NCBI GenBank assembly: GCA_947499145.1
Contig: CANMNB010000005.1
Span: 310,001-374,000, forward strand
Length of the DNA stretch: 64,000 nt
From: an uncultured Arachnia sp.
GTDB taxonomy: Bacteria > Actinomycetota > Actinomycetes > Propionibacteriales > Propionibacteriaceae
Direction of reading: 5' to 3'
Part shown: piece by piece, positions 45,342-49,552 of the stretch
How the letters are laid out: each line of letters starts with the position of its first letter
Position numbering within the stretch: position 1 is the first letter of the stretch
The notes under the pieces: model-generated
Databases searched by the model: none
The model's input: only the letters and a program-made list of their open reading frames with translations
What the model was told of the DNA's origin: nothing
Made by a program: the position numbers and the translations under genes

Positions 45342-46420
45342 GCGTTCTCCTCGTGGGTGAGCCAGCGCCGGAGGCCCGCAGCGCAGGCGTCCAGCTGGTG
45401 CGCCGGGCAGTACTCGTGGTCGGTGTGGGCGAGGGAGGGATCGCCGGGGCCGTAGTTGACCGCGGGGATGCCGAGCGCGGAGAAGCGGGCGACGTCCGTC
45501 CACCCGTACTTCGGCTTGGGTGTGGCCCCGACGCTCGTCACGAAGTCCTGAGCGATGGGACGGTCGAGACCCGGCCGGGCCGCCGGCGACATGTCGGTGA
45601 CGACGAAGTCATGGCCGTCGAACACCCGCTCCAGCTCGGCGAGCGCGTCATCGGGGGACTTGTCCGGCGCGAAGCGGTAGTTGATCTCGATACTGGCCGA
45701 CGGCGGGACGACGTTGCCGGCCACGCCGCCGGAGACGAAGACGGCGTTGAGGCCCTCCCGGTACGTCAGGCCATCGACGTCGATGTGGCGCGGCTCCCAG
45801 TCGCGCAGACGATCCAGGACGTCGGACAGGCCGTGGATCGCGTTGACGCCGAGCCAGGATCGCGCCGAGTGAGCTGCCTTGCCCTCGACCGTGATGAGGA
45901 TTCGGCAAGCCCCCTGACAGCCGCCCTCGACCTGGGCGTCGGTGGGCTCCATCAGGACCGCGAAATCGCCCTCGAGCAGCTCCGGCGAGTTGCGGGCCAG
46001 ACGTCCCAGGCCGTTGAGTTCCGCACCCACCTCCTCGTGGTCGTAGAAGACCCAAGTGATGTCGCGGTTGGGGGCATCGAGCTCTGCCGCGAGGGACAGC
46101 TGGACGGCAACACCGCCCTTCATGTCACAGGTGCCGCGGCCCACGACGTGCAGCCCGTCGGGCCCCTCCTCCAGGCTGCTGGGCAGGTTGTGCGCCACCG
46201 GGACGGTGTCCAGGTGACCCGCGATGACCACCCGGGACGGCCGCCCGAGGTGTGTCCGCGCCACCACGCAGTCGCCGTCGCGGTGGACGTCGAGATGCGG
46301 TAGCTGGCGCAGCGCGGCCTCGACGAGGTCCGCCAACTCACGCTCGTTTCCGGAGACGCTCTCGACGTCGGTGATCGCACGCAGCAGGGTCACGAGGTCG
46401 GCGGACAGGTCCAGGCTCAT
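45338..46420 (-). CDS. dapE: Succinyl-diaminopimelate desuccinylase
   Basis: A 360-aa dizinc M20 peptidase-like enzyme releasing succinate in the diaminopimelate pathway. Metal and catalytic segments: VVIAGHLDTVPVA, GRGTCDMKGGVAVQLSLAAE, FYDHEEVGAELNGLGRL with the catalytic EE pair, LMEPTDAQVEGGCQGACR, and the C-terminal SLAHTDHEYCPAHQL histidine. The ATG at 46420 is preferred (TAGGCT ends 8 nt upstream) to an in-frame GTG-type start at 46450. First gene of a three-gene operon with the LOG and DivIVA-like genes. Confidence 0.92.
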   Translation of the reverse strand: MSLDLSADLVTLLRAITDVESVSGNERELADLVEAALRQLPHLDVHRDGDCVVARTHLGRPSRVVIAGHLDTVPVAHNLPSSLEEGPDGLHVVGRGTCDMKGGVAVQLSLAAELDAPNRDITWVFYDHEEVGAELNGLGRLARNSPELLEGDFAVLMEPTDAQVEGGCQGACRILITVEGKAAHSARSWLGVNAIHGLSDVLDRLRDWEPRHIDVDGLTYREGLNAVFVSGGVAGNVVPPSASIEINYRFAPDKSPDDALAELERVFDGHDFVVTDMSPAARPGLDRPIAQDFVTSVGATPKPKYGWTDVARFSALGIPAVNYGPGDPSLAHTDHEYCPAHQLDACAAGLRRWLTHEENA

Positions 46421-46494
46421 GGCCCGTGAGCCTACCGCCCGGCCCGTCACCCCGCCCCGCCACGCGCATGGAGCGCCGAGGGTTGGCTCACAGT

Positions 46495-46536
46495 TGTGTG
46501 CGATCGTGGTTGGTCAGCCAACCAGAATCGCACACA
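46495..46536. repeat. 42-nt hairpin repeat, left copy
   Basis: TGTGTGCGAT (46495-46504) pairs perfectly with ATCGCACACA (46527-46536). Inside, a 3x3 internal loop is followed by GGTTGG (46508-46513) pairing with CCAACC (46518-46523) around a TCAG loop. A 41/42 identical copy lies at 47536-47577. This copy begins 5 nt past the DUF559 stop codon, so it could end that transcript, but there is no U-tract. Upstream GGTTGGCT (46481-46488) could pair alternatively with AGCCAACC (46516-46523). Confidence 0.9.
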
Positions 46537-46541
46537 GCCCA

Positions 46542-47468
46542 TCAGACTCGACGTCGACATCGGGGGCAGTTGCGCAGAGATCCCTCCCAACCCCGGGTGC
46601 GCAGCGCCCCAGCGACGAGAGCCGCCACCCGGCAGGGGTCGTCCACGATCGCAGGCCACGTGAACCGCAGGGTTCGGAAGCCCGCCACGACGTGCTGGTT
46701 GTCACGTTGCGCGTCGGCCCAGGCGGCCAGGCCTTGATGCCAGACCCGCCCGTCGAGCTCGATCAGGAGACCATGATCCGGGTAAGCGACGTCACTTCTG
46801 GTTCCGATACTGGCGGAGAACTGCCTCATAGAGGGCGGGAGGCGGTGGGCGCGTTCCACGTCATGGAAATAGCGCCGTTCGAGCGGACTCTCAACGCCGA
46901 CAACCACGTCCCCGAGCACTTCCAGCACCAGGCGACGGTTCCCGAGCGTGGGAAGCTGCTCGGCTTGGAGCCGCATTCGTTCAGCGGTGGTGCGCCGGGT
47001 CCCTACGGCGCCGGCCAGTATCCTCACCGCCTCCGCTTCGGGGACCATGCCGCACAGTTCGAGAGCGGCCCGCTCAATCTTCAGGCGTGGCGGACAGCCG
47101 GTGCCGAGCCGCTCACCCCGCCTGAATCTCCACGGTCCTGAGCCACGCCGCACCTGCGACGTGGACCACACGTCGATGGTGGTCGGTTGCGGACACAGTC
47201 CCCACAGGTGCGCCGCCGCCGCTCCCCCGAGGACACCACCTGTCGCCTGGAGCACGCCGGCCCAGGCCCACCCGAGCCACTCGGGAGCATCCGAGGTGGC
47301 GAGAACGCCGGGAGCGATCCCATGCCAGTGGCCGTCGCGGCGAAGGCGGCGAGTCGCCTGCCGCGTGACACCGTGCGCCGCGGCCTGACTCACGGAGAAC
47401 ACGCCACCCTGCCGGGCGGCGAGCTTTCTCAGCCGGTCGGGAATGGCGATGCTCGCATACACACCCAC
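46542..47468 (-). CDS. AbiEi-type winged-helix protein with C-terminal DUF559 nuclease-like domain
   Basis: A 308-aa protein. Residues about 10-60 (LAARQGGVFSVSQAAAHGVTRQATRRLRRDGHW) resemble the winged helix of AbiEi antitoxin-type proteins. Residues about 190-293 fit the DUF559/Vsr-like restriction-endonuclease fold: ESPLERRYFHD, then SDVAYPDHGLLIELDGRVWH with likely active-site D226, E237 and D239. The tail ends with a CPRC pair (301-304). It may bind and cut DNA; whether it is an antitoxin, defence nuclease or selfish element is unknown. No toxin gene is adjacent. It stands alone between two nearly identical hairpin repeats. The GTG start is tentative. Confidence 0.72.
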   Translation of the reverse strand: MGVYASIAIPDRLRKLAARQGGVFSVSQAAAHGVTRQATRRLRRDGHWHGIAPGVLATSDAPEWLGWAWAGVLQATGGVLGGAAAAHLWGLCPQPTTIDVWSTSQVRRGSGPWRFRRGERLGTGCPPRLKIERAALELCGMVPEAEAVRILAGAVGTRRTTAERMRLQAEQLPTLGNRRLVLEVLGDVVVGVESPLERRYFHDVERAHRLPPSMRQFSASIGTRSDVAYPDHGLLIELDGRVWHQGLAAWADAQRDNQHVVAGFRTLRFTWPAIVDDPCRVAALVAGALRTRGWEGSLRNCPRCRRRV

Positions 47469-47535
47469 ACTGTGTGTCTGCCGGACCCATGATCACCGCC
47501 CGTGGGTCGTCCCTGTGGAGAACCAGGACCGAGAG

Positions 47536-47577
47536 TGTGTGCGATCGTGGTTGGTCAGCCAACCAGAATCGCACACG
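47536..47577. repeat. 42-nt hairpin repeat, right copy
   Basis: Identical to the left copy at 46495-46536 except for the last base; the 9-bp outer stem GTGTGCGAT/ATCGCACAC and the GGTTGG/CCAACC inner stem are conserved. Weak similarity continues a further 12-14 nt on one side only (GCCC..GACTC), the side that contains the DUF559 stop codon in the left copy. It lies 22 nt past the acyl-CoA oxidase stop. Confidence 0.9.
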
Positions 47578-47599
47578 CCCTCCGACTCTGCGGTGTGCC

Positions 47600-49552
47600 T
47601 CAGGCCGAGAGCCGGTGTGGTTCCGCGTCGACCAGCGCCGCGGTGTCGCTCGGCTCGAGCATGGCCGAGTTCAGCCACTCCTCCGGGATGCCGAGGCCCT
47701 CGACGAGTTCGAGTGCCTTGTCGCGCAGCTCCAGACACAGCTGGTCGACGGCCTCGCGGACCGCCTTGCTCCGGGCGCTGTCCATCCGGTTGTGCTCCAG
47801 GTACCACGCCCTGTTCTCCTCGATGGTGGCCAGCGCGTAGAGGTCGCACACCTTGATCAGGATCGAGCGGATGTAGTCGTCCTGCGTCTCGGAGATGCCC
47901 TCGACGAAGGCCTCGAGCACAATGCGATCGGTGTGGGCCCTGGCTGCCTCGAGCATGTGCTCCTGGAGCGGGTTGACGGCGGCGAACGCCTCGTCCTTCG
48001 GGACCTTCGCGACCGCCCGCATCCGACGGGCGAGGCCCTCGACGACGTGGCGCTCACGCTCCTCCAGCATCTCGATGTGCCAGCCACGGGCGCGCAGCTT
48101 CTCGGACTCGGGCTTCAGCTTGGCGCCGGCGACGAGACGCTTGATGGTTGCCCCCGCCGCGGTGCGCTCCATGAACTGGCCACCGAGCATCTTGGCGGTG
48201 GCCTGGGCGGTGCCCCGCAGGTCCATGTCCCCCCACGTCTTCTTGTAGTCCAGCAGCAACGCCTTGGCCACGAGCTGCATCAGCACGGTGTTGTCGCCCT
48301 CGAACGTGGCGAAGACGTCGGCGTCCTGGCGTAGCAGGGTGATCCCGTTCTCGCTCATGTAGCCCGCGCCGCCGCAGGACTCGCGCGCCACCTGGATGGT
48401 GTCGTTGGCCCAGCGGGTCAGCAGGACCTTGAGGCCGGCCGCACGCGTCTCCAGTTCGCGCGCCGCCGCAGGCTCGGAGCCCTGGGCGTCGTGGACGCGC
48501 TGCAGGTGCCGCGTGACTTCGTTGATGGCGAAGCCGTAGGCGTACGCGCGGGCCACGTTCGGCATCAGCTTGCGCTGGTGGGTCTGGTAGTCCAGCAGCG
48601 TGACCTCCTCCCCCAGCCCGGGCTTGCGGAACTGGGTGCGCTGCAGCCCGTAGCGCACGGCGATGCTGAGCGCCTTGCGGGTGGCCATCGCGGCCCCACC
48701 GGCGACGCAGATGCGACCCCGCACGAGGGTGCCGAGCATGGTGAAGAAGCGGGCGTTCTTGCTCTCGATCGGCGAGCGGTAGCGGCCCTCGTCGTCGACG
48801 CCGCCGTAGCGGTCGAGCAGCATCCGCCGCGGCACCCGCACGTGCTCGAACGCAATCGTGCCGTTGTCCACGCCCAGCAGGCCGCCCTTGTGCCCGTGGT
48901 CGCCGGTCGTGATGCCCGGCAGGTCGTTCAGCTCCTCGTCACGGATCGGCACCAGGACCGCGTGCACGCCGTGGTTCTCCCCGTCCACGAGCAGTTGGCC
49001 GAAGACGACGGCCATCTTGCCGTGCTTCGCCGCGTTGCCGATGTAGGCCTTGCGAGCCTGCGGGTGCGGCGTGTGGACCTCGTACTCGTCGGTCTCGGCC
49101 ACGTAGGTGATCGTCGTTTCGACGGACTGCACGTCGGACCCGTGGCCGAGCTCGGTCATGGCGAAGCAACCGGTGAGTCGGCACGAGATGATGTCGTCGA
49201 TGAACGTGGTGTGGTGCCACCCGTTGCCCAGGTTGGAGACCGCTCCACCGAACAGGCCGTGCTGGACGCCGGACTTGATGTTGAGGGACAGGTCTCCCAT
49301 CGCGAGCATCTCGAAGTGGGCGACGGACTCCGCGACGGTGCCCTCGTGCCCCGGGAATCCGACGACGCCGAAGCCGCGGTCCGCGAGCGCCACGAGTCTG
49401 TCGAGCGCCCACTCGCGCGCCTCGTCCATGGCCATGGCCGGGTCGCGTACCAGGTCAGCAGCACCGAGTTCGTTGCGCAGCATCTCCTTGGTCTCGTGGT
49501 GCGGTCCGTCGAGCGCAGCCTTGAGGCCTTGTCCGGTGGGGGTGATCATCAT
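47600..49552 (-). CDS. Acyl-CoA oxidase/dehydrogenase family protein
   Basis: A 650-aa flavoenzyme for the first step of fatty-acid beta-oxidation. The middle domain has GCFAMTELGHGSDVQSVETTITY, and ESCGGAGYMSENGITLLRQDADVFATFEGDNTVLMQLVAKALL matches the acyl-CoA oxidase family; the C-terminal 150 residues form the extra ACOX helical domain, so it is longer than a plain acyl-CoA dehydrogenase (about 400 aa). Oxidase versus dehydrogenase activity cannot be told from sequence alone. GAAGGG lies about 5 nt before the ATG pair at 49552. Upstream on the same strand is the TetR gene, the likely regulator. Confidence 0.88.
   Translation of the reverse strand: MMITPTGQGLKAALDGPHHETKEMLRNELGAADLVRDPAMAMDEAREWALDRLVALADRGFGVVGFPGHEGTVAESVAHFEMLAMGDLSLNIKSGVQHGLFGGAVSNLGNGWHHTTFIDDIISCRLTGCFAMTELGHGSDVQSVETTITYVAETDEYEVHTPHPQARKAYIGNAAKHGKMAVVFGQLLVDGENHGVHAVLVPIRDEELNDLPGITTGDHGHKGGLLGVDNGTIAFEHVRVPRRMLLDRYGGVDDEGRYRSPIESKNARFFTMLGTLVRGRICVAGGAAMATRKALSIAVRYGLQRTQFRKPGLGEEVTLLDYQTHQRKLMPNVARAYAYGFAINEVTRHLQRVHDAQGSEPAAARELETRAAGLKVLLTRWANDTIQVARESCGGAGYMSENGITLLRQDADVFATFEGDNTVLMQLVAKALLLDYKKTWGDMDLRGTAQATAKMLGGQFMERTAAGATIKRLVAGAKLKPESEKLRARGWHIEMLEERERHVVEGLARRMRAVAKVPKDEAFAAVNPLQEHMLEAARAHTDRIVLEAFVEGISETQDDYIRSILIKVCDLYALATIEENRAWYLEHNRMDSARSKAVREAVDQLCLELRDKALELVEGLGIPEEWLNSAMLEPSDTAALVDAEPHRLSA

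Follow-up and report, generated by a model that had tools for sequence, protein, structure and literature searches.

A nuclease gene flanked by its own dispersed palindrome: an apparently undescribed pairing of gene and repeat, with a possible role in palindrome spread

Among pairings between a nuclease gene on the chromosome and a family of dispersed palindromes, that of RAYT proteins and REP sequences is the best known. Hairpins in subterminal positions at both ends of a small gene cassette are also characteristic of IS200/IS605-type elements, and MITEs are known as short non-autonomous copies. In the passages cited here, REP sequences carry a GTAG or CGTC tag at one repeat end (PMC3733652), AbiEi binds its promoter at two inverted repeats of 23 bp with a 3-bp spacer, each half-site being proposed to take one monomer (PMC3985639), and the nuclease I-Bth0305I dimerises on nearly 60 bp (PMC3943268). 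The locus that we describe here brings together an AbiEi-like DNA-binding part, a nuclease domain of the I-Bth0305I and Vsr type, and a short palindrome that is also found elsewhere in the genome, and looks like an undescribed gene-plus-repeat system, which may spread short DNA palindromes.

The window, i.e. the whole stretch of 64,000 nucleotides that was analysed, harbors on its minus strand an ORF with a GTG start (46542..47468) that encodes a 308-aa putative AbiEi-EDxHD (Vsr/DUF559) nuclease. As the initial annotation had noted, it is a lone gene bracketed by two palindromes; its neighbors in the window are an M20 peptidase (dapE-like) gene and an acyl-CoA oxidase gene, and no AbiEii toxin gene was found beside it. 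The proposal that the protein joins an AbiEi-like winged helix to a Vsr/DUF559-type nuclease domain is backed by both Pfam and fold comparison. AbiEi_4 matched the window protein above its cut-off (E 1.6e-8), and DUF559 reached 17.5 bits, under its cut-off of 20.6; among 36 aligned homologues, AbiEi_4 was matched in 30 and DUF559 in 27 at E 0.1 or better, and the AbiEi model of the PADLOC defence library (PDLC02249) matched all 36. In the structure model (pLDDT 94.3), residues 5-189 (46902..47456, minus strand; winged helix about 10-58) match the fold of the AbiEi antitoxin 6y8q (Z 8.3, 176 residues aligned, rmsd 4.7), suggesting a DNA-binding module, and residues 193-294 (46587..46892, minus strand) match NGO0050 (3hrl, Z 12.8), the catalytic domain of I-Bth0305I (3r3p, Z 12.5) and Vsr (1cw0, Z 10.2), with lower-ranking Foldseek matches set aside as weak. 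The residues first picked out, D226, E237 and D239, are present and are conserved in 36, 36 and 35 of the 36 aligned homologues, and E197, D226, E237, H244, D252 and D256 are invariant in all of them. Since the putative active-site residues are invariant, the nuclease domain looks intact throughout the alignment, and we read E197, D226, H244 and D252 or D256 as the probable catalytic set. In Pfam, none of the 36 proteins matched a transposase family at an E of 0.1 or below; in NCBIfam, one of the 36 has a weak match (E 0.0064) to a model of ISNCY family transposases. Searches for spread by plasmids or viruses returned no plasmid record, and no relative could be confirmed among viral contigs; one unannotated phage record matches residues 194-304 only.

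The two palindromes lie at 46495..46536 and 47536..47577 and are identical at 41 of 42 positions, exactly as first annotated. Relative to the gene, the first is the downstream copy (minus strand), 5 nt past the stop codon, and the second the upstream copy, in the same orientation (minus strand), 67 nt ahead of the start codon. Both fold as single-stranded DNA with z about -6.5 to -6.7, and none of 200 shuffles was as good. The 10-bp outer stem that had been assigned to this hairpin was recovered by folding, together with a loop of 4 nt, but the proposed 3x3 internal loop and 6-bp inner stem were replaced by a 2x2 loop and an inner stem of 7 bp: of the three positions that face each other, one forms a T-A pair. 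A search of known RNA families (Rfam) gave a single match at chance level (E 0.27).

Homologues were collected from 41 genomes by retaining rows of at least 105 bits and leaving out those below; the partial match G022:C139 was dropped from the 42 rows, giving 41 homologues, five of which have a stop within the matched stretch and were excluded from the alignment of 36 sequences (A1). A flank-to-flank match with a score of at least 40 was found around 30 of the 41 homologues, vs. two of 125 control genes in the same loci (at least 200 aa, from a simple gene caller, none within 700 bp of a homologue), and the palindrome pair around the gene is far beyond chance, in a set whose members are not independent, some being close orthologues. 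In these 30 pairs the upstream piece ends 34-203 nt ahead of the gene; the downstream piece includes the stop codon in 15, begins 0-19 nt past that codon in 14, and begins 116 nt past it in one. The gene end touches or lies in the downstream piece in 29 of the 30 sister pairs, in line with the earlier suggestion that it is part of the unit; the accompanying claim, that similarity between the copies continues past the palindrome toward the stop codon, is weakly borne out in the window (about 4 nt more), and holds in the sister genes in another form.

The matched pieces are themselves mostly palindromic: with wider flanks, 27 of 31 score at least 9.75 as a palindrome (a count made without a shuffle control) and four score low, and in the 30 paired genes the median best palindrome is 15.1 upstream and 16.2 downstream, vs. 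a shuffled mean of 7.7. Ten of the 11 homologues without a scored pair still have a single palindrome that outscores the best of 20 shuffles, although in one case it is a G-run. The sequence of the flanking palindrome varies from gene to gene. A second set comprised 17 named genome contigs, from Tessaracoccus, Arachnia and related MAGs. Sixteen of its loci could be scored, and 14 of them have a pair scoring at least 44 with wider flanks; nine of the 16 repeat the first set, as judged by contig and identity. A thin sample of the phylum yielded a homologue at E 1e-20 in 7 of 198 genomes, own genome included, and three of the ten loci outside the own genome have a pair scoring at least 40. Together with the homologue sets, this indicates a strong pattern within the genus and the order to which it belongs, and a weaker one beyond them. 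Other repeat arrangements were also seen in these loci: doubled or long compound repeats (110-170 nt) stand at gene ends in L079, L084, L110 and L113, recalling REP doublets, and a 455-aa control gene in Tessaracoccus massiliensis (L121:2212-4179) has another repeat on either side, GGTTTCGACACTGCTCGC...GGCTCAACCA, which seems to be a hairpin repeat of a different kind. The genome of the window (G000) holds three more homologues, at C4:131-1075 (L080), C12:142827-143711 (L094) and C2:10706-11590 (L097), of which the first has an inverted pair, the second a weak pair and the third none that was scored; their pieces differ from the window palindrome.

Each palindrome family counted genome-wide, six of six, is dispersed. 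Genomes with the gene carry at least 4 to 23 full copies, and one relative carries fewer. In G000 (2.88 Mb), ten copies were found with at most three mismatches, two flanking the gene and eight elsewhere; in their alignment the inner GGTTGG....CCAACC is invariant, the outer arms read GTGTGC...GCACA, and a mismatch that persists lends the copies a direction. A complete genome of the genus (G001) carries one half copy and 23 full copies, the latter 95% identical over 52 nt, with an invariant GTCT in the centre and abrupt ends in unrelated flanks; among 36 genus genomes searched, this palindrome is found only in the one with its gene. The family of G016 has 15 sites in its own genome and one weak match elsewhere (in G032), and G010 and G018 carry 20 and four copies (at most three mismatches) of palindromes like those of their own genes. 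In a second genus, one common family occupies eight sites in G044, ten in G047, five in G041 and two in G056; it was found in these four of 11 genomes searched and is absent from the other seven, and three of the four are known to have the gene. The genome-wide counts and the flank matches agree that the palindromes are both dispersed and linked to the DUF559 gene, and instead of hundreds of copies unrelated to it, the genome holds ten, in a family that tracks the gene family.

By our own tally of the 21 solo copies in G001, 15 stand no more than 30 nt from a gene end, and 7 to 9 are located between convergent genes. The copies are mostly intergenic, although the simple gene caller puts an ORF over four of eight solo sites in G000 and three of 21 in G001; six of these seven are overlapped only by the first codons of the ORF, and one (L010) is covered by a 101-aa ORF. 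Orientation of the G001 copies is 12 vs. 11, with no bias seen against replication, for an assumed origin position. No target-site duplication was seen by eye in the 23 aligned copies, and none of 27 loci searched had gene remnants beside a solo copy. Solo copies also occur in clusters, with three in 5 kb at L204 and two in 0.7 kb at L213 (both G001), and two in 2.6 kb at L014 (G000). At intergenic loci L292, L269 and L294 of G047, the spots of the first family also hold palindromes of a second one, GTGAAG...GGTGGTTCCGGCCACC...CTTCAC, and a perfect palindrome of 18 bp, ATTCTTCCGCGGAAGAAT, so that palindromes of several kinds share sites.

How do these features compare with the systems introduced above? 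The initial annotation had been reminded of REP/RAYT units or selfish nuclease elements, and REP/RAYT is supported as an analogy, in that a gene is flanked by a short palindrome with further copies scattered in intergenic DNA and with a sequence that differs from gene to gene. Membership, on the other hand, is not supported, because the enzyme has another fold and the aligned repeats have no conserved 5' GTAG. RAYT is an HUH (Y1) transposase, whereas here a Vsr/EDxHD nuclease is joined to an AbiEi module; no GTAG or CGTC tag is conserved at the ends of aligned copies in three families; 2-23 full copies were counted per genome here, against the more than 100 often given for REP in the portions of the literature cited; and the palindromes here are 42-56 nt long with an oriented centre. 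We take the HUH enzyme and the end tag as defining features of REP/RAYT, and neither was found here. The AbiE type IV toxin-antitoxin systems share the AbiEi fold and, in the parts of the source cited, a similar layout of inverted half-sites (about 20-23 bp) around a short centre; the locus differs from them in the lack of an adjoining AbiEii toxin gene in the window, the fused nuclease, and a palindrome that also stands at the gene end and throughout the genome, and the AbiEi module is thus used without being part of an AbiE toxin-antitoxin locus. With I-Bth0305I and Vsr the protein has in common the nuclease fold and the conserved E, D, H and D residues; it differs in its AbiEi-like DNA-binding part and in palindrome flanks instead of an intron location. 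Hairpins at both cassette ends and short non-autonomous copies recall IS200/IS605-type elements and MITEs, but no Y1 transposase domain was matched and no target duplication was seen here. Among the matches listed from the open-access literature, which leaves subscription papers mostly outside the scope of the search, no description of an AbiEi/DUF559 nuclease-palindrome pairing was found, and we therefore call the pairing new and its mechanism hypothetical.

Comparison of related genomes reveals sites both with and without the gene and its palindromes. Five relatives have both neighbor genes of the window locus close together on one contig; in the others these are unlinked or only one was found, which is uninformative. 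In three of the five (G024, G025 and G026) the dapE-like and acyl-CoA oxidase genes are adjacent, with matched ends 38-123 bp apart, and neither the gene nor the palindromes are present, the DNA absent from them spanning approximately 46454..47590, with edges not resolved to the base. In the remaining two (G012 and G032) this position is occupied by other DNA and a gene that encodes about 600 aa, and the nuclease gene stands at another locus, common to both. Gene and repeats are accordingly not conserved at one site in all relatives, three of which have empty loci. At one solo site (C5:9824), comparable on one side only, no palindrome follows the same gene in G024, G012 and G032; at a second site (C6), the neighboring genes are unlinked in the relatives found. 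With palindromes lacking from relatives at the gene locus and at a solo site, the palindromes themselves seem to be gained or lost.

The second genus gives a view of turnover at a single position. G044, G047 and G041 carry the gene at one locus, where G044 and G047 are 88-92% identical; the flanks of G041 are 86-95% identical, and the cassette between its palindromes is inverted, 68% identical in DNA and frameshifted. At one end of this G041 cassette only half of the palindrome is present, breaking off within the centre, and the half-site of G001 ends after the GTCT of its centre. Two outer-arm variants exist, one flanking the G044 and G047 genes and the other the G041 gene, and the two have the inner GAGACTTACGGGG largely in common; solo copies of the G041-type variant occur in G044 and G047 as well. 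Comparable solo sites in this genus are common to species about 90% identical, and movement there thus seems slow or stopped. Elsewhere, L301:8190-10060 (G047) has about 1.8 kb between conserved flanks where L305 (G041) has 160 bp, each with a palindrome.

The two arms tend to change together. We counted 43 doubly changed cells, vs. 18.2 ± 2.9 in shuffles (0 of 500 as high), and the count fell to 0 to 9 cells when the partner was slid; on two of five measures the signal was weak, with 17 and 66 of 500 shuffles reaching the observed value, and relatedness is uncorrected in these counts. The effect is small in G001, with three cells vs. 1.0 in shuffles (36 of 500). Arms that change together indicate that dyad symmetry is required, either as a duplex (read by two protein modules) or as a hairpin.

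Recognition of the palindrome by its own protein, suggested in the initial annotation, is an idea made likelier by the layout of the AbiEi operator, an analogy with a described system. Across 38 genes, palindrome similarity did not correlate with protein similarity (Mantel rho 0.05, p 0.17), and the two go together in no more than some of the most closely related pairs. G012 and G032 have proteins 65% identical and largely different palindromes, and the palindrome of G032 is near that of the window (two differences within the pattern used) with proteins 57% identical; the G012 palindrome differs more from that of the window than the G032 palindrome does. The winged helix is 61.2% identical vs. 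58.6% overall in G000 and G032, which have a similar outer arm, and 59.2% vs. 66.3% overall in G012 and G032, which have different ones. A rule that a shared outer arm means a shared winged helix is weakly consistent with these values, in too few pairs, and was set aside.

Our best reading is that the protein would bind its own palindrome and promote its spread, which would make the locus a functional analogue of REP/RAYT with an unrelated nuclease. The dispersal, the gene specificity, the empty sites and the half-sites lead us to infer cleavage by the protein at the palindrome, which then spreads through repair. An AbiEi-type module would bind the oriented palindrome as two inverted half-sites of about 20 bp, which is what a dimer of the AbiEi-nuclease fusion could bind, to judge from AbiEi and I-Bth0305I. 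The EDxHD/Vsr-type nuclease domain would then cut DNA at the palindrome, probably at or near the non-palindromic centre, and repair of the break, via some copying route, would bring the short palindrome into further intergenic sites and from time to time move or swap the whole palindrome-gene-palindrome cassette. PD-(D/E)XK-type nucleases are known as hydrolases and not as strand-joining transposases, which counts against such a mechanism. On balance, we consider it somewhat probable that a widespread gene-and-repeat pair of this kind exists, in which the protein binds and cuts at the palindrome and repair spreads it and, occasionally, the cassette. We also put forward, more tentatively and with somewhat less than even confidence, a bolder version: an as yet undescribed class of selfish gene-repeat pairs within Actinomycetota, in which a hydrolytic AbiEi-EDxHD nuclease would spread short oriented palindromes and exchange its own cassette through a cut at the centre and host repair, with fast-changing outer arms read by the winged helix and inner arms changing more slowly.

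Several alternatives were weighed against nuclease-driven spread. An AbiEi-type repressor could control itself and a regulon through the palindromes, which would be conserved operators, with the nuclease domain in another role. In the passages cited (PMC3985639), a 23-3-23 layout is what AbiEi uses to repress the promoter of its own gene; the upstream piece of the 30 pairs ends 34-203 nt ahead of the gene, and the comparable second-genus sites are conserved, with paired changes. We nevertheless regard this reading as rather unlikely: the solo copies of G001 favor gene ends (15 of 21) and lie in 7 to 9 cases between convergent genes, where no promoter is expected, copies of that genome are 95% identical over 52 nt with the centre included, copies are missing from relatives at the places compared, and the copy at the stop codon is left unexplained. 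A homing endonuclease, whose cassette inserts in either orientation at pre-existing palindromes and duplicates them, would fit an EDxHD-type fold as in I-Bth0305I and the finding that G041 has, at the shared position, a cassette that is inverted and diverged; it seems distinctly unlikely, given that there is no pre-existing palindrome at the gene locus of G024, G025 and G026, nor at one solo site in three relatives, and that solo copies have no adjacent gene remnants. The match of all 36 aligned proteins to the AbiEi model of a defence library would suit a role in defence or addiction, in which the nuclease protects the cell and the palindromes are self-marks, decoys or controlled targets, but there is no AbiEii toxin adjoining the gene in the window and we know of no system that pairs a nuclease with dispersed self palindromes, which makes this reading improbable. 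That the palindromes are ordinary terminators or REP-type repeats standing beside the gene by coincidence is highly improbable, even for mostly intergenic hairpins near gene ends, with no terminator-like site found within 46350-47750, an association of 30 of 41 vs. two of 125 control genes, and a sequence that changes with the gene and is nearly confined to genomes having that gene.

As a pairing of a nuclease with its own repeat, this system is comparable to REP/RAYT but made from unrelated parts, and some genomes hold several sister genes, many with their own repeat. The pairing would give a testable function to solitary AbiEi/DUF559 proteins, would supply a source of matched protein-DNA specificities, and would offer a second example in which to study the colonisation of genomes by short palindromes.
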